IMG/VR virus record: IMGVR_UViG_3300049024_000085
Location: 1-28,049 of that record
Length of the DNA: 28,049 nt
Direction: 5' to 3' (one strand)
From: a virus
The notes beneath the pieces were generated by a model. That model searched no databases. It saw only the letters and a list, made by a program, of their open reading frames with translations, and was not told the origin of the DNA. Position 1 is the first letter of the stretch; every line of letters begins with the position of its first letter. The position numbers and the translations under genes were made by a program. Of this stretch, positions 8,124-28,049 are shown piece by piece.

Positions 8124-9353
8124 TTATCCCGCGGCGGTACCGATGATGCGGCACGCCCATTCCGGGCGCAACGCTTCGATCCCGTACAGCACGTCCAGGC
8201 GGCACATGAAATCATCGTTCACGGTGTCGAAATCCCGGATCAGGCGGATCGCCATGCCATCCATGTTCTGGCGGCTGGCCATGTCCACGCCCCGGGGCAG
8301 CTCCAGATCCGCCATGGCCAGGGTGAGGAAATCCGAATGATACAGGAGATTCTGCTTGTACCCGGTCGAAGCCGAGCCCACCAGCGTGAGCGCATCGGTC
8401 GAAACCGGCGCGCTGTTCACGTTCTGATAGGGGCCGGTGATGATGCAGGCGGGGCTGATCGAGAGGGTCAGCGCGCCGGCGCCGTCGGCCGTGGCATCCG
8501 CCAGGATCGTGAACTGTTGCAGGTTGCCGGTGCTCTGCTTCGTGTCCGGGTTGACCGAATACACGGCGGGCAGGGTGAACACCGTTCCGGCCTTCAGGGT
8601 CGTGGAGGCGGTCCACGCGGCGGTGATGAGGGATTGGGAGGCGGCCCAGCCCGTGGTCACCTGGTTGGCGCCGTTGACGGTCGGAGAACCGGCTTGGAGG
8701 CCATTGGTGTGCAGCGGGATATTCTGGGTCATGAAGAAATCGGCGCCCAGGGTGTCGGACGCCAGCATGCCCTTGCGGTACTGCGAAGCGAGCTTCCCGG
8801 GATCGTTGAACAGGGCGGAAAGCCCGTTCGCGGTGCGGGCCATCGCCAAGGGCGAAAGGGCCGCATAGCGATCGCCGTCACGCGGCGCGCAGAATTCGTC
8901 CAGGCGCGCGCCGGCGTCCAGCCACACCTGCGCGGTCGCGGGGATGGTACCGGCCGAGCCCACCAGGTTGGCCACCTTGTAGTAGTAGCCGGCGCAATCC
9001 TTGTCGATTTCCGACGCGAGGCGCTGCACGGGGCCCTTGATGTAGCGTTCGGAGAACTCTTCCATCTTCAGGGTGAGATCGGCCGAAGAGAACTTCAGGC
9101 CGACGTGTTTTTGCGTGGTCACGTTCAGGGTGGTCTGGGTTTCCAGCGCATCCTGCTGCACGAAGGTTTTTCCCGTGCTTACGGTGAACTGCACCGGCCG
9201 ACGGATGCGCAGGGCCGATCCGATCTTGGCGCCGTTCTTCGCGAAGGAAGAATCATATTGACGGTTGATGGTCTTGGAAAACTTGATCTCATTCCGGAGC
9301 CGGCGGAGGGCTTCCTTGGTGATGAGGTCTACGGTGAGCTGCGTGTTGGACAC
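8124..9353 (-). CDS. Major coat protein, P22 gp5-like (409 aa)
   Basis: I chose GTG 9353 because TGGAGG lies five bases upstream; an alternative GTG at 9380 adds nine residues. The protein begins SNTQLTVDLITKEALRRLRNEI and ends with MCRLDVLYGIEALRPEWACRI plus a short tail. This matches the P22 coat family, in which an N-terminal arm and spine helix open the protein and a CRI-x-x-x-YG-x-x-A-x-RPE segment closes it. Length is close to P22 coat (430). A Thr/Ser/Val-rich region about residues 210-330 would correspond to the inserted I-domain. Several hundred copies form the HK97-fold icosahedral shell on the scaffold. Its 3' end is partly duplicated at 14224-14273. Confidence 0.88.
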   Translation of the reverse strand: MSNTQLTVDLITKEALRRLRNEIKFSKTINRQYDSSFAKNGAKIGSALRIRRPVQFTVSTGKTFVQQDALETQTTLNVTTQKHVGLKFSSADLTLKMEEFSERYIKGPVQRLASEIDKDCAGYYYKVANLVGSAGTIPATAQVWLDAGARLDEFCAPRDGDRYAALSPLAMARTANGLSALFNDPGKLASQYRKGMLASDTLGADFFMTQNIPLHTNGLQAGSPTVNGANQVTTGWAASQSLITAAWTASTTLKAGTVFTLPAVYSVNPDTKQSTGNLQQFTILADATADGAGALTLSISPACIITGPYQNVNSAPVSTDALTLVGSASTGYKQNLLYHSDFLTLAMADLELPRGVDMASRQNMDGMAIRLIRDFDTVNDDFMCRLDVLYGIEALRPEWACRIIGTAAG

Positions 9354-9410
9354 GGCAACCTCCAGCGGTTCAGGTTTCACCCGTAACCGCGGAGGTGCGT
9401 CTCCTAGCAG

Positions 9411-10367: not shown

Positions 10368-12685
10368 GCGGGCTCCTCTTCGGCCGGTTCCGGGGGCGGC
10401 ATGCCCTCGGGGATTTCCGGCGGTTCATTCTCCGCGGGCGGCGCGGGTTCCGGGGGCATTGGCGCCCCATCCGGGGCCGGGGGCGCCCCTTCGGGTCCTG
10501 AAGCCGGGACAGGGCCGGGAAGGTCCCCGGGGGCGGGCGCGGCGGCGCCCCCCTGCCCCGGCATGCTTTGGAGCTGCATTTCCGCCATGGTCATGCGCAT
10601 CCATTCCAATTGCGTGGTGAGCTGTTCAATCTGCCCGAGGATTTCCGGGGACGGCGCAGCGTTGAGCTGCGCGATCTCCAGCTTGGTCTGGGAGTCGAGG
10701 TACGCCTTCTCGCGGTCCAGGTCGATCTTGGCCTGGTCGCTCTTGGTCTTGTCCTTTTCCTCGTTCAGCGCCGCGGTGAGCTGATCGATCGTTTGGTTCA
10801 TCACCTGCACCTGCTGCTGCATGGCGGCAAGCTGCTGGGTCAGCACCGGCACGGTGGCCTTGCCGTCCTTATCGTCGCCCGGGGCTTTGCCCAGAATCTC
10901 GGGCGGGATCGTCCGCTCCAGGCGATCGGCGAGGTCTTGCATGCCGGGGCCGTCGATGTTCCGAAGGATAATATCCCCGCCGATGTCCATCAGCTTGGGG
11001 TTGGCCTGCACCATTTGGGTTTGGATGTCGGCGGCTTCCTGGCGCTGCGCGGCGTAGGCCGGGCCCATGGATACCACCACGTCATATTCCCCGACGGAGA
11101 GATCGTACATCACCTGCTCGCCGGTCTCGGGATCCTCGAAGGGGTGATTAAAAAGAACCAGCTCCTCGTCCCCATTTTCCCCGAGGATGCGGGCCACGCG
11201 CGCCTCGTCGTACACCTGGCGGATCAGGTCCACACAGATCCGGCCGCAATGCCGAATGGAGCGCGCCAGGTTGTCGATGTAATGGAAGGTCGCGGTGTCG
11301 CTTTCGCTTTGCCGGCGCTGGATCGCGATGCCGGATTTTTCCGGGCCGCGGTCGCCGAGGCCGGCCGAGTAAATGCCCGTGGTCGCCTTCATATCGTCGC
11401 GGGCGGAAAGACGGGCATTCACCACGCCGGCGGGAGGCCCGGCAAAGGGCTGGCGCTGCGGAGGCGGCGCGAGCTGGCCGCCCAGGGTCACGGGCTTGTA
11501 TTCCAGGGCCGCGATATTTTCCACGTGGGAGCGTTCCCAAGCGGCGGGGTCCGCGCTCCCGCTGATCTGGCCCTCGGCCGCGATCCACGGGGCCTTGGGC
11601 GCGAGCGCGATCATTTCGGTTTCAGCCGTCCACCAATAGTTATACATCCGCTGGGGGTCTTTAGCGTTCCGGACCAGGCCGTAATACTTGGTTTCCCCTT
11701 CGATATGCAGCTCTATGCCCAGCACGGGGATGATCGGGATCCATCGGCCGGCCCATTCGCCTTTTTCCAAAATCTCGGCGCCGCTGATCTTGAACCACTT
11801 CACCACGCGCCTATGGCTTTTGCGCTTCTTTACCAGCTTGTAGCCGGCGGGAATCTTCCCCCCCGGCAAGGTGTCGCGGAATGCTTTGATTGTCGGCGGT
11901 GGTTGCTGGCCACCCTCCGGCGCCGGCGCTCCGGTATATTGCAGGAGCAGCAGCTCGGCCGGGGTTTCCTCCACGGTCCAATATTCGGCCACCTTGACGG
12001 TGTTTTCCCCCCACCACGTTTCGTCGGTGTCGCCTTCGCCGGTCTCGCCCCATTCGGTTACCTGCGCATTGGGCCAGCTCTCCCGGAACTCCTCCCGCGG
12101 CATGTCTTCCGTGACGAAGCACCACCGCATATCCGAGAAGTCCGCTTTCTTGGCGGGCCCGGTGTACACGGCGAAGCGGTTCGCGATCCGCTCGATAAAA
12201 ATATCCTGGTCGAAACTTTCTTCATTGCAGTAATCGGTCCGCACGCGGAAAAAGCCAAGGCCAGAAATCACCGCGTCATTGAAGGCGGTATCATAGGCCA
12301 CGTCCGCGGAGCTGTTTTGCTCGATATGGCGTATCAGCCCTTGCAGCTTCTCGGCGGTCTTCACGTCGGCCTTGGAGTCGAAGGGCCGCACGCGGATGGA
12401 GGGTTTATTTTGCCGCTGCTCGTTCGTCACCTGGAAAACGTATTGCGGGAGCATGTTCACGGTGAGGCATGGGCGATCGGAGTCATCCCGATCCTTTTCA
12501 ATGTCGCCATCCCATTGCTTGCCGCCGTAAAAGCGAATATCGTCCAGGGCCTCGGCGCGGTCGCCGCTCCAGCGGTCCACCGCGGACTTGAAGCGGGTCC
12601 GGGCCAGATCCATGAGCGCGCGATCTTCGTCGCTCACCTCGGCCGTGGTTTCCGGTTCATCTTCGTACTGCGTTAATTTGCTCAT
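10364..12685 (-). CDS. Portal protein, P22 gp1-like (773 aa)
   Basis: The start is ATG 12685, which overlaps the terminase-nuclease stop as ATGA; a GTG nine bases upstream is less likely. Length is near P22 portal (725). The N-terminal 120 residues include ARTRFKSAVDRW, YGGKQWDGD and RPCLTVNMLPQYV, a pattern typical of the P22 portal family. A wing/stem region follows, with DKGPEKSGIAIQRRQSE-like Gly/Gln/Arg segments near residue 440. Residues about 600-700 are Gln/Glu-rich coiled coil (QQLAAMQQQVQVM), corresponding to the long barrel of P22, and the last 80 are Pro/Glu/Ala-rich low complexity. Twelve copies form the ring at one vertex through which terminase packs DNA and onto which gp4 docks. 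Confidence 0.9.
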   Translation of the reverse strand: MSKLTQYEDEPETTAEVSDEDRALMDLARTRFKSAVDRWSGDRAEALDDIRFYGGKQWDGDIEKDRDDSDRPCLTVNMLPQYVFQVTNEQRQNKPSIRVRPFDSKADVKTAEKLQGLIRHIEQNSSADVAYDTAFNDAVISGLGFFRVRTDYCNEESFDQDIFIERIANRFAVYTGPAKKADFSDMRWCFVTEDMPREEFRESWPNAQVTEWGETGEGDTDETWWGENTVKVAEYWTVEETPAELLLLQYTGAPAPEGGQQPPPTIKAFRDTLPGGKIPAGYKLVKKRKSHRRVVKWFKISGAEILEKGEWAGRWIPIIPVLGIELHIEGETKYYGLVRNAKDPQRMYNYWWTAETEMIALAPKAPWIAAEGQISGSADPAAWERSHVENIAALEYKPVTLGGQLAPPPQRQPFAGPPAGVVNARLSARDDMKATTGIYSAGLGDRGPEKSGIAIQRRQSESDTATFHYIDNLARSIRHCGRICVDLIRQVYDEARVARILGENGDEELVLFNHPFEDPETGEQVMYDLSVGEYDVVVSMGPAYAAQRQEAADIQTQMVQANPKLMDIGGDIILRNIDGPGMQDLADRLERTIPPEILGKAPGDDKDGKATVPVLTQQLAAMQQQVQVMNQTIDQLTAALNEEKDKTKSDQAKIDLDREKAYLDSQTKLEIAQLNAAPSPEILGQIEQLTTQLEWMRMTMAEMQLQSMPGQGGAAAPAPGDLPGPVPASGPEGAPPAPDGAPMPPEPAPPAENEPPEIPEGMPPPEPAEEEPA

Positions 12686-13419
12686 CGCATCCACCCTCCG
12701 CGGCCACGGCCCAGGGGCTTGGCCTTTCCCCGGTTTTCTTTTTCGACGGGCTTCACGATCATCCGCCCCAAGCCCGACATGATCAGGTAGCGGGTCGCGT
12801 CCATGAGGTGGTCATCGTCTTTGACAACGGCGCCGTGTTCATCGCGCCTGTAGATTCTGTATTCCGCCAGCCAGTTTTTCAACGAACGGAAGACCTTTAG
12901 CCTACCGGAACTCAACCGCTCCCAAACCTGTTGAATGCCGGCCTCGCGCGAATTGTCCGCGCATTCCAGGTTTAACCCAAGGTCTTTATAGATCTCAAGT
13001 AACCGCTGCCCATCAACCTGGGAACGGCCGCGGGCCGCGGGATCGATCACGCCGGGGATCCACAGGCCGCGCGCCTTGAAGCCTTCCGCATGCACGGAGG
13101 GCTCGGCCTGGCCGCGGTAATGCTCCGAAGTCAGGTAAACGACGTTCGCCTCGCGATCGTGCGCGCCCCATATGCCCGCGGTCCGCTTCCATCCCACGTC
13201 CATGCCGAAGCCGCGCGGAAAATGCGACGGGATCGGGAAGTCATCCACCACGATGTCGCTTTCAGGAACGGGATAGATCGCGCCAATGCCGAGGGTCGGC
13301 ACGCCCTTGCTGCGCGCTTCGCGTTGGTACGGAGGCACCGATCCCCACAGGTCCGCCTTCTGCTTTTTGGTGAGGTGCGGAACCTCGTCCCAAGTACATG
13401 AGACCACCTTTTTGGACAT
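12682..13419 (-). CDS. terL: Large terminase, nuclease (C-terminal) half as a separate gene (245 aa)
   Basis: This gene encodes only the RNase H-like nuclease domain of a large terminase. Residues 8-60 (CTWDEVPHLTKKQK, then PPYQREARSKGVPTLG and IYPVPESDI) correspond to the linker after the ATPase domain. Catalytic acids are visible as D74 in FGMDVGW, D126 in GVIDPAARGRSQ, and D207 with H204 in DDDHLMDATRYL. No Walker A or B motif is present. It has its own ATG, 3 bases after the stop of the Dam-like gene, and is coupled by ATGA to portal. The matching ATPase half is about 2.6 kb upstream at 16001-16753. The two products would have to associate to make a working motor that cuts concatemeric DNA. 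Confidence 0.88.
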   Translation of the reverse strand: MSKKVVSCTWDEVPHLTKKQKADLWGSVPPYQREARSKGVPTLGIGAIYPVPESDIVVDDFPIPSHFPRGFGMDVGWKRTAGIWGAHDREANVVYLTSEHYRGQAEPSVHAEGFKARGLWIPGVIDPAARGRSQVDGQRLLEIYKDLGLNLECADNSREAGIQQVWERLSSGRLKVFRSLKNWLAEYRIYRRDEHGAVVKDDDHLMDATRYLIMSGLGRMIVKPVEKENRGKAKPLGRGRGGWMR

Positions 13420-13422
13420 GGC

Positions 13423-14028
13423 CTAGGCTCGGGCTTCGCTATCGCGCAGGGGGCCAAGCCGCCAATCCCACGGCGCCGGCCAAAGGAACGGCCGCGAACG
13501 GTCGAAGACGGCGAGGAGGAGATCCTTCGGGTATGGATCCTTGTTCGGCGTGCCGGCTTTCGCGCAGGGGATCGGGTCCAGGCCCTTGGCCGCGCGCTCG
13601 GCGTTGATCCGCTTCGTCTTGGTGTCCATGTAGTCGAGCGGGTACAGGAACTCGAAGACCAGCCGCGGCCGAAGGAACCGGATCCCGGCCTGGCCGTGAA
13701 GGCTTTCCGCGTACCAATTGGAGCCGACGGCCGCCGGTACCAGGAAAAGGATTTTAGCCCCGTGGCGGGCCTCTTCCGCGGCCTTGGCGGCCCATACTCC
13801 GATATTCCCATATGGGGGATTGAGCCAAAGCCAGCCGCCGAGGCGCCGCCAGGGCCGATCCAATGCCAAAGCGTTGTCCGTTTCCGTCAGGTATTGGAGG
13901 GCTTGCGCATTGTCGGCCGAGGCGGCTAAATCCCAGGTGAGGGGCCCAAACTCGGCGCGGATCACGTCCATGAAATTGCGAGGCGTCCGATAGACGCCCT
14001 GTTTTAGATCCTCGCCTTGGCCGGCCAT
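13423..14028 (-). CDS. Phage Dam-type DNA N6-adenine methyltransferase (201 aa)
   Basis: The protein matches the phage DNA N-6-adenine-methyltransferase (Dam) family. It has VYRTPRNFMDVIRAEFGPLTW near the N-terminus, a DLAASADNAQALQY segment, and the catalytic NPPY motif at residues 70-73 in WLNPPYGNIGVW. A further KILFLVPAAVGSNWY segment follows. The start at ATG 14028 has GAAAGGA upstream; the gene overlaps the zinc-knuckle gene by 25 bases. It would methylate adenine in phage DNA, probably at a GATC-like site, and thereby avoid host restriction or influence packaging. It lies within the block that separates the two terminase halves, directly ahead of the nuclease half. The target sequence cannot be read from the gene. 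Confidence 0.85.
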   Translation of the reverse strand: MAGQGEDLKQGVYRTPRNFMDVIRAEFGPLTWDLAASADNAQALQYLTETDNALALDRPWRRLGGWLWLNPPYGNIGVWAAKAAEEARHGAKILFLVPAAVGSNWYAESLHGQAGIRFLRPRLVFEFLYPLDYMDTKTKRINAERAAKGLDPIPCAKAGTPNKDPYPKDLLLAVFDRSRPFLWPAPWDWRLGPLRDSEARA

Positions 14029-14123
14029 GGTTTCCTTTCGAGTCGATAGGGGCAGCTAGACCAAACGTGATCGGGCCAGCCGCAATAAAGGCAAAGGGGT
14101 TTTGTCCAGCCTGGCCAATTCAT
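14004..14123 (-). CDS. Zinc-knuckle mini-protein (39 aa)
   Basis: ATG 14123 overlaps the preceding stop as ATGA. The 39-residue product carries CLYCGWPDHVWSSCP, which is an exact C-x2-C-x4-H-x4-C zinc knuckle, with a basic Lys/Arg-rich C-terminus. Such knuckles bind single-stranded nucleic acid in other proteins. No other domain fits in this length. The gene could be part of a larger operon function with the Dam-like methyltransferase, whose start it overlaps; no known phage homologue comes to mind. Confidence 0.6.
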   Translation of the reverse strand: MNWPGWTKPLCLYCGWPDHVWSSCPYRLERKPWPAKARI

Positions 14124-14296
14124 TGCAAGTCCGCGGCGCATAGGAGCGCGAGCCAAAGCAACCGAACCACCACGAACCAAAGGAGGGAAACCTCGTCGGT
14201 CTCCTCCTCGGGCTCGCCGGCGCCGACGATTCGGCACGCCCATTCCGGGCGCGGCGCCGTCCAGCCGTACAGCACATCTATGCCGACGGCATTCAC
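14120..14296 (-). CDS. Membrane mini-protein with coat C-terminus copy (58 aa)
   Basis: A GTG at 14296 overlaps the upstream stop as GTGA, and the stop overlaps the next ATG as ATGA, so the frame fits the operon exactly. Residues about 6-25 (IDVLYGWTAPRPEWACRIVG) copy the coat protein end (LDVLYGIEALRPEWACRIIG); at the DNA level 20 bases are identical (14232-14251 and 8149-8168). Residues 28-36 are acidic, and residues about 37-53 (VSLLWFVVVRLLWLALL) look like one membrane helix. Likely a duplication of the coat gene end fused to a membrane segment. Whether it is expressed or is only debris held open by chance is unknown. Coding use of the frame is supported by the coupling. Confidence 0.55.
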   Translation of the reverse strand: MNAVGIDVLYGWTAPRPEWACRIVGAGEPEEETDEVSLLWFVVVRLLWLALLCAADLQ

Positions 14297-14469
14297 CGCG
14301 GCGGCCCCGGTGGCCGGGAGTCGGGGTAGCACACGGGAACGCGGCAGGTGTCGGCCGCAGCCGTATCTACCTTGCGCGCGGCCGGTGGCGTCCCCCGCTC
14401 CTCGGCGTCCATACAAGTGACCAGCAACAGGGCCGAATACAGGAAAAGGAAATAGGCGACCAGGTTCAT
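14293..14469 (-). CDS. Putative small lipoprotein or membrane-anchored peptide (58 aa)
   Basis: ATG 14469 overlaps the upstream stop (ATGA). Residues 1-18 (NLVAYFLFLYSALLLVT) are a strongly hydrophobic N-terminus followed by Cys19, giving a lipobox-like LVTC. The n-region lacks a positive charge, which weakens a lipoprotein call. The remainder is polar and Pro-rich at the end (SRPPGPPR) with two further Cys. Short Pro-rich lipoproteins of the Rz1 type look similar, but no Rz partner gene is seen, so lysis involvement is only a possibility. Confidence 0.5.
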   Translation of the reverse strand: MNLVAYFLFLYSALLLVTCMDAEERGTPPAARKVDTAAADTCRVPVCYPDSRPPGPPR

Positions 14470-14666
14470 GGCTCGGGGCTCCAGCTCTCCGGGCCCTCGG
14501 CGCCTTCTTCGTCGGCTTCCTGGAGGCGCCGCTGCTCTAACCACAGATTGAGCTTGACGATCTCCATGGCCGCCAGCATTTCGCCCAGGGTCACGGTGCC
14601 GCGGTGCTTGTCCACCACCTGCTCCAGGTCATCCTGTACCTGCTGGCATGCCGGTTTCCCGTCCAT
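14466..14666 (-). CDS. Hypothetical helical protein (66 aa)
   Basis: ATG 14666 shares its last base with the preceding TAA (TAATG), and the stop overlaps the next ATG. The sequence has two likely amphipathic helices (QVQDDLEQVVDKHRGT and LAAMEIVKLNLWLEQRRLQEADEE) followed by an acidic tail. No family recognised. The tight coupling on both sides argues that it is translated with its neighbours. Confidence 0.6.
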   Translation of the reverse strand: MDGKPACQQVQDDLEQVVDKHRGTVTLGEMLAAMEIVKLNLWLEQRRLQEADEEGAEGPESWSPEP

Positions 14667-15055
14667 TACTCGTCCTCCGTCTCATCGCCGGCGGCGCCGG
14701 CGGCCCCGTCCTTCGGCTGCATGCTGCCCATGGTGCGGCAGTTGTCGCACAGCTTTTCCGTAAGGTCGGTTCCCACGGTAAATCGCTGCTGGTGATAGCA
14801 GATCGAGCACTCGGCCAGGAGCAGCCGCATCTCCTGTTGCTCGGCTACCTCGCGCCATTCATACCCTTCATTGATCGCAAGCACCAGGTACCAGCCTTCT
14901 TTTTTCAGCGCCTTGATCTTGGCGTTGAGATCGGCCGAATTGGATTTCAGCGTTTCGCGGTGCAGCTCGATTTCCCGATGCACCAGGGCGAGCCGCTGGC
15001 CGCGGTCTTTCACCTCCACGTCGGACAGCTCGTATTTGTATTTGCCTTCGGCCAT
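14666..15055 (-). CDS. Helical protein with C-terminal zinc-ribbon-like motif (129 aa)
   Basis: ATG 15055 has a GGAGGG site upstream. Residues about 1-75 are charged and helical (REIELHRETLKSNSADLNAKIKAL parts) with a coiled-coil look. Residues about 82-110 hold two Cys pairs: C-S-I-C and, 18 residues later, C-D-N-C, spaced as in a zinc ribbon. A GTDLTEKLCDNCRTMG stretch covers the second pair. The end is Gly/Ala/acidic. A coiled-coil plus ribbon suggests a small nucleic-acid- or protein-binding adaptor. No specific family recognised. Confidence 0.62.
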   Translation of the reverse strand: MAEGKYKYELSDVEVKDRGQRLALVHREIELHRETLKSNSADLNAKIKALKKEGWYLVLAINEGYEWREVAEQQEMRLLLAECSICYHQQRFTVGTDLTEKLCDNCRTMGSMQPKDGAAGAAGDETEDE

Positions 15056-15066
15056 CGGGCCCTCCT

Positions 15067-15219
15067 TTATACCGTCACCGGCAATGCGTCGTCATCGTCC
15101 ATGTCGAAATCGTCATCGTCATCATCCTGATCCTCTTCCTCCAGGGCCCCCTGCACCAGCACGGCGCCGACGCCGGCCCATAGCAGGGCCTCGGTGGCCG
15201 CTGCCGCAAAAGGGCTCAC
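15067..15219 (-). CDS. Hydrophobic/poly-acidic mini-protein (50 aa)
   Basis: GTG 15219 overlaps the upstream stop as GTGA. The first half (FAAAATEALLWAGVGAVLVQGAL) could be a single membrane or buried helix, and the second half is a long Asp/Glu run (EEEDQDDDDDDFDMDDDDA). Acidic runs like this can mimic DNA or bind cations, but no function is established. It is one of several tiny genes between the terminase halves. Confidence 0.5.
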   Translation of the reverse strand: MSPFAAAATEALLWAGVGAVLVQGALEEEDQDDDDDDFDMDDDDALPVTV

Positions 15220-15491
15220 CCGGCCGCCTTGAGGAGATTCCCCAGCTCGATCAGGCCCTCGCCGATCGCCGCGGCCGTGAGCGGGCGGGAGCCGCCGCGA
15301 ACGGTATGTTGCGCCAAGGCTCCGGACTCCGGCACGGCCATGCAATCCAGGGCCCACTCCACGCGATCGCTTTCCAGGTTGTAAGCCAACAGCATGCGAA
15401 CGGCTGGGACCGATTGCGCGCCGTGCCGCGGGTCCGGCGCCGGCGGCGCCATCACCTTGACGTTGTACAGGCCCCGCATGATCTGCGCCAT
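15216..15491 (-). CDS. Hypothetical protein (91 aa)
   Basis: ATG 15491 shares a base with the preceding TAA (TAATG). The sequence (MAQIMRGLYNVKVMAPPAPDP...) has a strand-like core (RMLLAYNLESDRVEWALDCMAV) and an Ala/Leu-rich C-terminal helix. No motif or family recognised. It is coupled to both neighbours. Confidence 0.6.
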   Translation of the reverse strand: MAQIMRGLYNVKVMAPPAPDPRHGAQSVPAVRMLLAYNLESDRVEWALDCMAVPESGALAQHTVRGGSRPLTAAAIGEGLIELGNLLKAAG

Positions 15492-15721
15492 TAATCGCCC
15501 TCCCGCTGGTAGCCAGGCCGCGCGCGCGCGGGCCGGTTGGATTCATCGATCACCGTGCAGTTGGAAATAGTCAGCCCTTCCACCTTGACGCCGGCGCCGA
15601 GGACACGGAGAGCCGCCTGCATGGTGGCCCCATCCACGCCAGATCGCAGGATCTCCATGATCGTCCTGCGCAGCTCGCGCACCGCGCCCTCCTGCACGCC
15701 GACGTAAAACCCGGTTTTCAC
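15491..15721 (-). CDS. Hypothetical protein (76 aa)
   Basis: The start at ATG 15721 shares a base with the upstream TAG/TAA region. The N-terminal part is helical (EGAVRELRRTIMEILRSG) and the C-terminal part has a strand (VKVEGLTISNCTVI) and a basic tail. No recognisable domain. Spacing and coupling are as for its neighbours. Confidence 0.58.
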   Translation of the reverse strand: MKTGFYVGVQEGAVRELRRTIMEILRSGVDGATMQAALRVLGAGVKVEGLTISNCTVIDESNRPARARPGYQREGD

Positions 15722-16008
15722 TACCGGCCGCCGTATGCGAGGCGGATCAGGGCCTCGTCAGCCTTGGGCGTGATCTCCTCGGGGATGGACCGGGCCAGGT
15801 GCTCCAGGCTTTCCGCTTCCTCGCGGAGCTGGCGCGCGCGGTTGCGGAGCGCGGCACGGCCGCCGAGCCCGTACTTCGTCATTTCCGGGGCTATATCCAT
15901 ACCGAACGTCATCCCGGGGCCGGGGCCCACGGCCGCGCCGATCCCGTGCATGTTTGCCATGCTTTCGCCTAATGCCGTTTTGATCTTCGCGTGGTCTTCC
16001 TTACACAT
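15721..16008 (-). CDS. Hypothetical protein following terminase ATPase gene (95 aa)
   Basis: ATG 16008 overlaps the end of the terminase ATPase gene by eight bases, so translation is probably linked. A Gly/Pro/Met-rich first half (GIGAAVGPGPGMTFGMD) precedes a charged helix (LRNRARQLREEAESLEHLAR). No family recognised. It occupies the position where the nuclease half of the terminase would be expected to continue. Confidence 0.6.
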   Translation of the reverse strand: MCKEDHAKIKTALGESMANMHGIGAAVGPGPGMTFGMDIAPEMTKYGLGGRAALRNRARQLREEAESLEHLARSIPEEITPKADEALIRLAYGGR

Positions 16009-16753
16009 CGTCTATCTCCTCGGCCTCTTCGGCCGTATCGGGTTCGGGGGTCGGCTCCAGGAACGATTTCACCATTTCGCTGAAGCCAAGCAAAGGGGTG
16101 AAGGTGGTCAGCACGATCCCGTCCGTGGTCATGGTGCGCAAAACGCATTCGGCATGCACCTTGATCGGCGGCTCCTCGTCTTCCCATATGAAATGTTGGG
16201 CCGTGCCCTGGAAGGACAGATCGCCCTGGTCGTAGCTCTTGAACTGCCCGCGGCTCCACTTGCCCGTGGGCTTATGCCGCACGTAGAAGATGTCCACGGC
16301 CTCGGGCGTGCCCGCCTTCGGCCGCCAGCCGCCCAGGGCCTCGGCCGGCAGAAAGCCCGTTCCGAAATGGTTCCATTGGCCCAGCAGCTCGGTTTGGCAA
16401 ATGTCGCGGGTGGTCTTCGCGTCTTTCCCGGCGATCCAGCACTTCACGGGGCCCGGGAATTTCTTCCCCTCCCACCAATGCGGATAACGCCCGGTCATAT
16501 GGCAAACGGTTTCATAAGCGCCGGCCTGGGTCTTGCCCACCCGGTTGGCGGCCATGAACAGGCGCTCCCGGTGCTCCTCACCCTCGCGGAATAATTCCAT
16601 ATGTCGCGGGTACAGCTCACGCCGATACGGCCCGGTATCGGGGAAGTAGGTCTCGAACAGGTTTTTTTGTCGGTACGCCAGCTCGGCCTGCACGGCCGCG
16701 AGGGCAACGGGGATTTCCTCCGGCCGAAGGTTCGCGAGATCCTGGTGGTTCAT
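16001..16753 (-). CDS. terL: Large terminase, ATPase (N-terminal) half as a separate gene (250 aa)
   Basis: ATG 16753 overlaps the methyltransferase stop as ATGA. The product carries the whole packaging-motor ATPase domain: the terminase-type Walker A AANRVGKT at residues 68-75, Walker B HFIWEDEEPP at 187-196 with the catalytic Glu, and coupling motif TTFTP at 216-220. After the coupling motif and a FSEMVKSFLEP segment the protein ends with an acidic tail (DTAEEAEEIDDV) and a TAA. Usual large terminases continue here into a nuclease domain of about 230 residues. In this window that domain is a separate gene at 12682-13419. Length (250) is therefore about half the usual 450-500. The N-terminal FETYFPDTGPYRRELYPRH segment fits the P22-type relatives of this family. 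Confidence 0.88.
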   Translation of the reverse strand: MNHQDLANLRPEEIPVALAAVQAELAYRQKNLFETYFPDTGPYRRELYPRHMELFREGEEHRERLFMAANRVGKTQAGAYETVCHMTGRYPHWWEGKKFPGPVKCWIAGKDAKTTRDICQTELLGQWNHFGTGFLPAEALGGWRPKAGTPEAVDIFYVRHKPTGKWSRGQFKSYDQGDLSFQGTAQHFIWEDEEPPIKVHAECVLRTMTTDGIVLTTFTPLLGFSEMVKSFLEPTPEPDTAEEAEEIDDV

Positions 16754-17442
16754 AGGGCCATGGCCCCCTGCCCCATCCGGCGCGCGGTCACCTCGCAATA
16801 GCGTTCCTCGATCTCGATCCCGATTGCGCGGCGTCCTAGATCTTTGGCGGCGCGTAGCGTGGTACCGGAGCCTGCGAACGGATCCAGGACCAGGCCGCCC
16901 GCCGGCGCATGCTTTTCGATCAGGTACTTGAGGAGCGGGATCGGCTTTTCGGTCGGGTGCTCGCGCGAGCTGCCCACCGGGGGGAACCCCTTGATTACGG
17001 CGCCATCCCTGCGCCCTGCAATCGGCCGGCGTCCATGCGCACCGAACAGGATCACCTCATAGTCCCGAGAATATTCCATTTCCGTATCGCCCATGCCGCC
17101 CCGGTCCTTATGCCAGATCAGCCCGGACTTGATTGGAAAGAGCGCGCTGCAGGCGTCGTAAAAATCGGGCCAGCTCTCCCAATGGCAAAAGACGAGGGCG
17201 TGGGCGTCGGGCTTCATGCGCTCGCCGGCGCAGAAAAGGACTTGCCGCGCCACGCGCACGCCCTGCCGGGCCCCGTCCGCGCGCACGTTGGCCTTCGCCG
17301 TCATCACGCCGGCGCCGGCGAACTGCTGGCCATAAGGTGGATCGGTCAGCACCAGGTCCACCTCGTCGGCCAGGTCGGGCAGCACGTCGCGCGCATCGCC
17401 ATGGTACAGGGTCACGGCCTCGTCCTGGTAATACGGCTTCAA
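16750..17442 (-). CDS. Beta-class DNA amino-methyltransferase (230 aa)
   Basis: I chose TTG 17442, which overlaps the preceding stop as TTGA and gives KPYYQDEAVTLYHGDARDVL; the longer upstream frame is Arg/Pro-rich and overlaps the zinc-protein gene. The catalytic DPPY motif is at residues 34-37 and the S-adenosylmethionine-binding DPFAGSGTT at 187-195. That order (catalytic motif first) defines the beta class, whose members make N6-methyladenine or N4-methylcytosine. A REHPTEKPIPLLKYLI segment precedes the cofactor motif, as usual. It would modify phage DNA. It is directly coupled to the terminase ATPase gene, and a different methyltransferase family lies next to the terminase nuclease gene. 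Confidence 0.85.
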   Translation of the reverse strand: MKPYYQDEAVTLYHGDARDVLPDLADEVDLVLTDPPYGQQFAGAGVMTAKANVRADGARQGVRVARQVLFCAGERMKPDAHALVFCHWESWPDFYDACSALFPIKSGLIWHKDRGGMGDTEMEYSRDYEVILFGAHGRRPIAGRRDGAVIKGFPPVGSSREHPTEKPIPLLKYLIEKHAPAGGLVLDPFAGSGTTLRAAKDLGRRAIGIEIEERYCEVTARRMGQGAMAL

Positions 17443-17675
17443 GCGGGGGCCACTTGCGCCGCGGCGGCGCGCTCTTGCGCCAGCACCTCGCGGGCCCTTT
17501 CGGCGGCCATGTCGGACAGGTGGCGGTACCCGGCGAGCTGGGCATCCTCGCCGGCGAGGCCCCGGGCCTTCAGTTTCCACCGCTCCCGGGCCACGCGATG
17601 CGTGCAGGGGTCGCAGTATTTCCACTTCATCGTCGCCAGGCCGCACACGCGGCACGTGCGCATGATTCGAGACAT
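17439..17675 (-). CDS. Zinc-ribbon-like small protein (78 aa)
   Basis: Residues 1-25 contain C-R-V-C and C-D-P-C pairs about nine residues apart (CRVCGLATMKWKYCDPC), a likely zinc site, then a basic and helical remainder (ARERWKLKARGLAGED). The gene starts at ATG 17675, one base overlapping its neighbour, and its stop overlaps the TTG start of the methyltransferase. Probably a small nucleic-acid-binding protein; phage small genes near HNH or methyltransferase genes often look like this, but no family is assigned. Confidence 0.62.
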   Translation of the reverse strand: MSRIMRTCRVCGLATMKWKYCDPCTHRVARERWKLKARGLAGEDAQLAGYRHLSDMAAERAREVLAQERAAAAQVAPA

Positions 17676-24628: not shown

Positions 24629-24702
24629 TGGTTGCGGGAGCCGGATTTGAACCGGCGTCTCCAGGGTATGAACCTGGCAAGGGACCGCTCCTCCATCCCG
24701 CG
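24629..24702 (-). tRNA. tRNA-Met (CAT), initiator-like, CCA encoded
   Basis: The minus strand folds into a complete 74-nt cloverleaf: 7-bp acceptor stem, 4-bp D stem, 5-bp anticodon stem, 5-bp T stem with TTCAAAT loop, and an encoded ACCA end. The anticodon is CAT. Three bacterial initiator features are visible: an unpaired C1-A72 end, A11-T24 in the D stem, and consecutive G-C pairs at 30-40 and 31-39. The third of the usual three pairs is A29-T41 instead of G-C. The D loop is short. A phage-carried initiator tRNA is possible; an elongator tRNA-Met or tRNA-Ile2 is less likely because those pair position 1 with 72. It is close upstream of genes that would follow it on the same transcript. Confidence 0.85.
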
Positions 24703-27023: not shown

Positions 27024-27287
27024 TCATTTCTCCGGGATCAGGTCGTGGATGGAACAGCCCAGCACGCGCGCCACCGCGTAGAGGGCCGCAAGGGAAGGAA
27101 GGCAATCACTATGTCGCCAGGCGCGGATCGTTCCCTTCGAGAGTCCCGCGCGCCGCATCAATTCATTGGCGCTCCACTCTTTTTCCTCGCGAAGATCTTC
27201 CAGGCGGCCCATTACTGCGCGGTTCATTTGCGCATAGGCGCGCGGCGCCACGGCGCGAGTACGTGGACGGGGTTTACCGGCGGCCAT
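27024..27287 (-). CDS. Cro/CI-like (XRE) helix-turn-helix regulator, copy 4 (87 aa)
   Basis: ATG 27287 overlaps the upstream gene by 14 bases. Residues about 28-85 (LREEKEWSANELMRRAGLSK, then GTIRAWRHSDCLPSL and LYAVARVLGCSIHDLIPEK) are a five-helix XRE domain with the recognition helix around SKGTIRAWR. The N-terminus is basic. Probably a phage repressor- or Cro-type protein controlling early genes. One of four paralogous genes in a row; its end DLIPEK matches DLIPTK in the first. Confidence 0.8.
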   Translation of the reverse strand: MAAGKPRPRTRAVAPRAYAQMNRAVMGRLEDLREEKEWSANELMRRAGLSKGTIRAWRHSDCLPSLAALYAVARVLGCSIHDLIPEK

Positions 27288-27627
27288 AGGATTCCCCCGG
27301 GACCAAAGCGTGGATCGTGGTTCCCAGCGCGCGAGCGATCGCCCGGAGCTGCACCAGGTTGGGGGCGACCGCGCCACGCTCGATTCCATAGATTCCCTGG
27401 GCGTCGTAAAGGCCCGGCACGCATACGGCGAGGCGGCCCTGGGTCATGCCCTTGCGCACGCGCGCGGCCGTGATGGCCTCGCCGATCGCCACGTTGATAG
27501 CGCGGGGAAGCCCGCGCCGGGAGCGCGAGCGGTCCACCTGGCCGTGGCGGCCGTCCCGGTTCCGTTTCGCCGGCCGCTGCCGAGCCTTCAAGTTGATCAG
27601 GCTTTCGCGTGGTGGCTTGCGCTTCAT
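27274..27627 (-). CDS. Cro/CI-like (XRE) helix-turn-helix regulator, copy 3 (117 aa)
   Basis: ATG 27627 overlaps the upstream stop as ATGA. A basic N-terminal 50 residues (KRKPPRESLINLKARQRPAK) precedes an XRE domain from about residue 55 (ITAARVRKGMTQGRLAVCVP, YGIERGAVAPNLVQLRAIAR, LGTTIHALVPGE). Like its neighbours it lacks a C-terminal protease domain, so if it is a repressor it would not be cleaved like lambda CI. Confidence 0.78.
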   Translation of the reverse strand: MKRKPPRESLINLKARQRPAKRNRDGRHGQVDRSRSRRGLPRAINVAIGEAITAARVRKGMTQGRLAVCVPGLYDAQGIYGIERGAVAPNLVQLRAIARALGTTIHALVPGESYGRR

Positions 27628-27881
27628 GCCCAGCCCCCGGGCGGCAGGATGCAACGGATCGGCACGTCCAGGGCCGCGGCCACGCGGTACAGGGCCAAGA
27701 GCTGAAGGCAGCTCTCCCCGTTCTTCACCTGGCGCGACAGGTTACCCTGCGACACGCCGGCGCGCCTGGCGACGGCGGCCAGGTTTAGGCCCTTTCGCTC
27801 GGCCTCGGCCGCGATCCGGCTTCCGATTGACTTCGCGAGATCGCGGTAAGCCACGTTTTTTAGGGGACTTTCGTACTTCAA
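27624..27881 (-). CDS. Cro/CI-like (XRE) helix-turn-helix regulator, copy 2 (85 aa)
   Basis: TTG 27881 has GAAAGGA about seven bases upstream. Residues about 30-80 (LAAVARRAGVSQGNLSRQVK, then LALYRVAAALDVPIRCILPP) are an XRE domain. The gene's first 140 bases lie inside the 3' end of the upstream HTH gene in another frame. The Shine-Dalgarno TCG/CGAAAGG segment complements a linker of the candidate sRNA. Confidence 0.75.
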   Translation of the reverse strand: MKYESPLKNVAYRDLAKSIGSRIAAEAERKGLNLAAVARRAGVSQGNLSRQVKNGESCLQLLALYRVAAALDVPIRCILPPGGWA

Positions 27882-28049
27882 GGGTCGGTCCTTTCGTGGG
27901 AATAAGATCGTACACGGAGCAATTGAAGACGGCCGCCAGGCGGTACAGGCTCAAGATGGACGGCGAGATCCGGCCGCGCTCCCAATCGCCCACGGTCGCG
28001 GCCGTCTTGCCGACCATGCGGCCGAAGGCTTCCGCGGCGAGGCGCAAAG
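27742..28049 (-). CDS. Cro/CI-like (XRE) regulator, copy 1, partial at right edge
   Basis: The frame is open at the window edge and ends at 27742. Its visible N-terminal part (FGRMVGKTAATVGDWERGRI, then LYRLAAVFNCSVYDLIPTK) is an XRE domain missing its first helix. After DLIPTK, where a sister gene stops, it continues about 50 residues of basic low-complexity sequence (KSPKKRGLPRSREVNRKPDR), overlapping the next gene by 140 bases. That tail may be out-of-frame read-through after loss of a stop, or a genuine basic extension. Confidence 0.7.
   Translation of the reverse strand, partial: LRLAAEAFGRMVGKTAATVGDWERGRISPSILSLYRLAAVFNCSVYDLIPTKGPTLEVRKSPKKRGLPRSREVNRKPDRGRGRAKGPKPGRRRQARRRVAG

Follow-up and report, generated by a model that had tools for sequence, protein, structure and literature searches.

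In the P22 coat protein, the C-terminal residues extend from the P-domain to the A-domain (PMC9965877). Coat regions can also signal to host proteins, as described for the Gol peptide of T4 gp23 and for the coat-sensing CapRel (PMC9712102), and the tail-assembly blocker Tab is directed against the tail tape measure protein (PMC10884400). Here we describe an open reading frame (ORF) of 58 aa on the contig of an uncultivated virus (IMG/VR record IMGVR_UViG_3300049024_000085; the window is the whole stretch of 28,049 nucleotides that was analyzed), whose residues 6–25 are homologous to the last ~20 residues of the P22-type coat (gp5; PF11651). Unlike such a coat, the ORF has only 20 of ~410 residues, lacks an invariant arginine, and places a proline inside a strand; its motif is followed by an acidic linker and a membrane helix, not by a stop codon. 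The coat regions involved in Gol and CapRel sensing, unlike the ORF segment, lie within full-length coats. Tab, as a small phage-encoded protein interfering with the assembly of another phage, may likewise serve as a working analogy for an ORF acting as a decoy.

Results and Discussion

A Coat-Like Segment in a Small Predicted Membrane Protein

The features of the coat gene and of the ORF are as follows.

8124–9380, minus strand: resident major coat protein of 418 aa, a member of the P22 gp5 family with the HK97 fold
8139–8198, minus strand: coat residues 395–414, which take in the later part of strand 390–403 and, past a turn, the greater part of the final strand 409–416
14120–14296, minus strand: 58-aa ORF, with a coat-derived N-terminal segment, an acidic linker, and a C-terminal membrane helix (predicted)
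14222–14281, minus strand: coat-like segment, ORF residues 6–25 (IDVLYGWTAPRPEWACRIVG)
14232–14252: 21 bases identical to 8149–8169
14126–14197, minus strand: predicted membrane helix, ORF residues 34–57 (hydropathy and structure prediction)

The resident coat gene (8124–9380) belongs to the Pfam family P22_CoatProtein (PF11651, E 4.4e-45), and the predicted fold of its product (mean pLDDT 87) matches the coats of Sf6, CUS-3, and P22. Residues 395–414 belong to the most highly conserved portions of P22-type coats. Elsewhere among these coats, those of L015, L021, L024, and L054 are encoded in frames of ~592 aa, extending well beyond the usual C-terminus and possibly adding a C-terminal extra domain.

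ORF residues 6–25 align without gaps to coat residues 395–414, with 15 of the 20 residues identical and a BLOSUM62 score of 85, compared with a mean of 26.6 and a maximum of 53 in 2,000 shuffles of the ORF. The similarity at the DNA level spans ~60–70 bp and is at background level on either side. It includes an exact identity that the preliminary description had given as 20 bases (14232–14251 and 8149–8168) and that extends to 21; no such identity is expected in shuffles, and it is the sole direct repeat of at least 20 bases within the window. With a profile built from 47 distinct coat tails the ORF scores 40.5 bits (E 2.5e-10), whereas the next non-coat match among all loci searched has an E of 0.12. 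The conserved C-terminal motif of the coats, D[VI]LYGx4RPxWACR, is present in the ORF, which retains every one of the most conserved coat positions (D, L, Y, G, R, P, A, R), and most of its differences concern sites that vary from coat to coat. The exception is ORF residue 15, a proline found in none of the coats examined, at what is there a mostly hydrophobic strand position. The similarity has sharp limits at either end and does not include the arginine that precedes the segment in the coat (R394), which is invariant in 90 of 90 distinct coat tails and is a glycine in the ORF; from the motif to the stop codon 53 residues remain in the ORF, versus 20–24 in coats. Descent of the segment from a coat C-terminus is well supported.

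Coding Potential and Predicted Topology

The translation of the ORF (14120–14296, minus strand) is VNAVGIDVLYGWTAPRPEWACRIVGAGEPEEETDEVSLLWFVVVRLLWLALLCAADLQ, 58 aa. Its GTG (14296–14294) shares a 4-bp overlap (GTGA) with the TGA that ends the upstream gene, and its TGA (14122–14120) shares one of 4 bp (ATGA) with the ATG that begins the downstream gene, so that the coupling on both sides reported in the preliminary description is confirmed; the ORF is a member of a chain of small genes with similar spacing. The G+C content by codon position (0.71/0.46/0.80) matches the real genes of the phage, and that of the tail outside the coat-like segment (0.74/0.38/0.79) is also like theirs. Given the 4-bp overlaps and the base composition, the frame is very likely a real coding gene that is translated. 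It is formally open further upstream, giving 98 aa from a TTG, and the coupled GTG is the likelier start.

The hydrophobic helix that had been noted after the coat-like segment is borne out by a hydropathy peak of 2.38 at residues 36–54 and by a helix predicted at residues 34–57, the only part of the protein predicted with confidence in a single-sequence model. As in tail-anchored proteins, this is a single hydrophobic helix near the C-terminus with no other in the protein, and the product probably spans the membrane once, anchored by its C-terminal tail, its expression and its insertion being predicted from these features. Searches of Pfam and PHROGs returned no family match for the ORF, and the full set of coat domains (N-arm, E-loop, P, A, and I domains) is absent from it.

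Distribution of the Motif

The motif was sought by pattern in IMG/VR (two scans) and in bacterial and archaeal genomes (one scan), as well as in the fetched loci and the window, giving at least 139 occurrences among the matches listed. In 138 of these 139 listed occurrences, which include the resident coat and in which a few contigs are counted twice, the motif lies 20–24 residues before the stop codon and follows the upstream sequence of the coat; the exception is the 58-aa ORF. The one match in the bacterial and archaeal genomes is a coat. The same fusion of a coat tail to a membrane protein was found nowhere else: not among the IMG/VR matches listed in the pattern scans, nor in the bacterial and archaeal genomes, and the 47-tail profile gave no other convincing non-coat match in the fetched loci. 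Forty related virus records, searched whole, had at most one motif match each and no second fusion, the matches lying in coat-length open frames apart from one frame truncated at the end of its contig, and in the phage collection only coats matched, together with one chance-level match (E = 9). On the sequence evidence, the ORF is a real gene chimera and is unique among the phages searched.

A Gene Cassette within the Split Large Terminase

The ATPase and nuclease halves of the large terminase are separated by 2.6 kb, within which the ORF lies. This stretch contains nine small genes and a Dam-type methyltransferase gene, most of them with stops and starts that overlap. The features named in the text are the following.

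12682–13419, minus strand: large terminase, nuclease half (Terminase_6C)
13423–14028, minus strand: adenine methyltransferase of the Dam type, encoded by the final gene in the inserted cassette
14004–14123, minus strand: downstream coupled gene, encoding 39 aa with the exact CX2CX4HX4C spacing of a zinc-knuckle-like pattern
14293–14469, minus strand: upstream coupled gene, 58-aa protein with an N-terminal hydrophobic helix, no family
15067–15219, minus strand: 50-aa protein, small membrane protein of the cassette
16001–16798, minus strand: ATPase half of the large terminase (Terminase_6N), with a start coordinate that was set mechanically

Relatives with 47–68% identical terminase C-terminal halves have both halves adjacent and lack the cassette, and the matched parts of their terminases range from overlapping to ~330 bases apart. 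No relative that we found carries the cassette. Three of its small genes had no relatives in IMG/VR, nor did one of these three in the phage collection, and the Dam gene was not found in 15 related records in a search run without a positive control. Neither further scraps of structural genes nor a self-splicing intron or other known RNA was found in the terminase gap, and literature searches on split terminases or on partial duplication of capsid genes gave no useful matches. Both terminase halves (12682–16798, minus strand) look complete, and for this reason the split terminase may work as two polypeptides.

Several other genes of the window were observed in passing. The 50-aa protein of the cassette (15067–15219, minus strand) is hydrophobic in its N-terminal half and strongly acidic in its tail (EEEDQDDDDDDFDMDDDD), and its gene overlaps the upstream gene by GTGA. 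A second DNA methyltransferase (N6_N4_Mtase; 16750–17655, minus strand) is encoded directly upstream of the terminase ATPase half, a tRNA gene is located at 24632–24702 (minus strand), and the region 27024–28047 (minus strand) encodes several short helix-turn-helix-like proteins in tandem, which are similar to each other in a self-match of the window.

The Source of the Segment

The preliminary description read residues 6–25 as a copy of the end of the resident coat protein; the homology holds, but derivation from the resident coat is weakened by comparison with foreign coats and by a codon test. Two foreign coats (L099 and L089) match the ORF segment at 17 of 20 residues, whereas the resident coat matches at 15, and at the nucleotide level the resident coat (45/60 identical) is no closer to the ORF segment than foreign coats are (up to 46/60). 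Among the 15 residues common to the ORF and the resident coat, 11 have an identical codon, slightly over the 7.8 expected from codon preference alone (P ~0.07), and outside the 21 identical bases both synonymous and replacement differences from the resident coat are spread throughout the segment. The 21-base identity is thus largely explained by a conserved peptide encoded in the same preferred codons, and does not constitute evidence of recent copying within the genome. Since foreign coats match better, the DNA identity is no higher, and codon sharing is near expectation, the segment, as far as these comparisons indicate, is an old or foreign fragment of a coat 3′ end, of ~60–70 bp, and not a recent self-copy. 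A partial self-duplication of the 3′ end of the resident coat gene would account for the presence of the 21-base repeat, the only one of its length in the window, and the borderline excess of shared codons makes an old self-copy possible; with a peptide nearer to some other coats, a nucleotide identity that foreign coats equal, and differences all along the segment outside the 21 bases, we regard such a duplication as rather unlikely.

Probable Capture of a Coat Fragment by Recombination

The explanation we favor, and consider probable, is that illegitimate recombination led to the in-frame capture of a scrap of a coat 3′ end, giving rise to a chimeric tail-anchored membrane protein in which the coat part has no capsid role; the degrees of confidence given to this and the other explanations are judgements and not computed probabilities. 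It is based on the homology, the sharp boundaries of the similarity, and the better match of coats other than the resident one. Among the readings offered previously, debris of recombination lies nearest to the data, but the frame has the look of a genuine gene. The recombination would have joined P22-type phages, or would have involved an older coat allele from the same lineage, and would have dropped ~60–70 bp of the coat gene 3′ end into the small-gene cassette between the terminase halves. The fragment would have kept the coat frame and come to encode the N-terminal region of a short protein whose gene is translationally coupled and which is probably a membrane protein with a single pass and a C-tail anchor. 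The coat-derived part would most likely have no capsid role and represent a neutral or co-opted extension, and any function would reside in the acidic linker and the membrane helix.

The retention of conserved positions, together with differences at variable ones, is what would be expected had most differences from the resident coat arisen in a coat gene before the capture. Against the explanation, residues conserved in coats were kept though no longer needed, which suggests that the capture was recent or that the motif has been under selection. The searches also found neither a donor nor an intermediate for the captured segment and, as no cassette-bearing relative was found either, no date can be put on the event.

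The proposals that the protein is a decoy for coat or for superinfecting phage, or anchors procapsids to the membrane, found no support. In the form that we considered, a membrane-anchored mimic of the coat C-terminus would poison the assembly of superinfecting P22-type phages or titrate a host coat sensor. Such a role would fit the high conservation of the motif in P22-type coats, the gene-like appearance of the frame, and the predicted membrane anchor, and there are precedents both for host systems that sense capsids (CapRel and the T4 Gol peptide; PMC9712102) and for prophage-encoded blocking of assembly (Tab; PMC10884400). However, the corresponding coat segment (395–414) belongs to composite sheets, of which it contributes part of one strand and the last strand, and judging from the predicted fold it is unlikely to fold alone; in the single-sequence model of the ORF the segment has a pLDDT of ~50 and no strand. 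The proline at ORF residue 15 lies inside a strand and never occurs in coats, the invariant arginine before the segment is missing, no second case was found in the searches, and a peptide common to the resident coat would risk poisoning the phage's own assembly. We consider a mimic of this kind quite improbable.

An artefact in the assembly of the metagenomic contig is very improbable: The record is an uncultivated virus contig and the junction is seen on no second one, but a 60-bp insert that preserves the frame, both 4-bp overlaps, and the codon-position composition of the phage is atypical of misassembly. Chance convergence of an unrelated peptide on the coat tail, for which one could cite a segment of just 20 residues and the long open frames common in a G+C-rich genome, is rejected because the alignment extends beyond the 21-base identity over all 20 residues, and is refuted for practical purposes by the shuffle scores (85 against a maximum of 53) and the coat-tail profile (E 2.5e-10, next non-coat match 0.12).

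Read as a capture by recombination, the ORF provides a clean example of a small phage gene taking up, in frame, ~20 codons from the end of a structural gene, and new small membrane genes may originate through short in-frame captures of this kind. Were the motif under selection in the ORF, this would point to cellular recognition of the coat C-terminus, which would be new.
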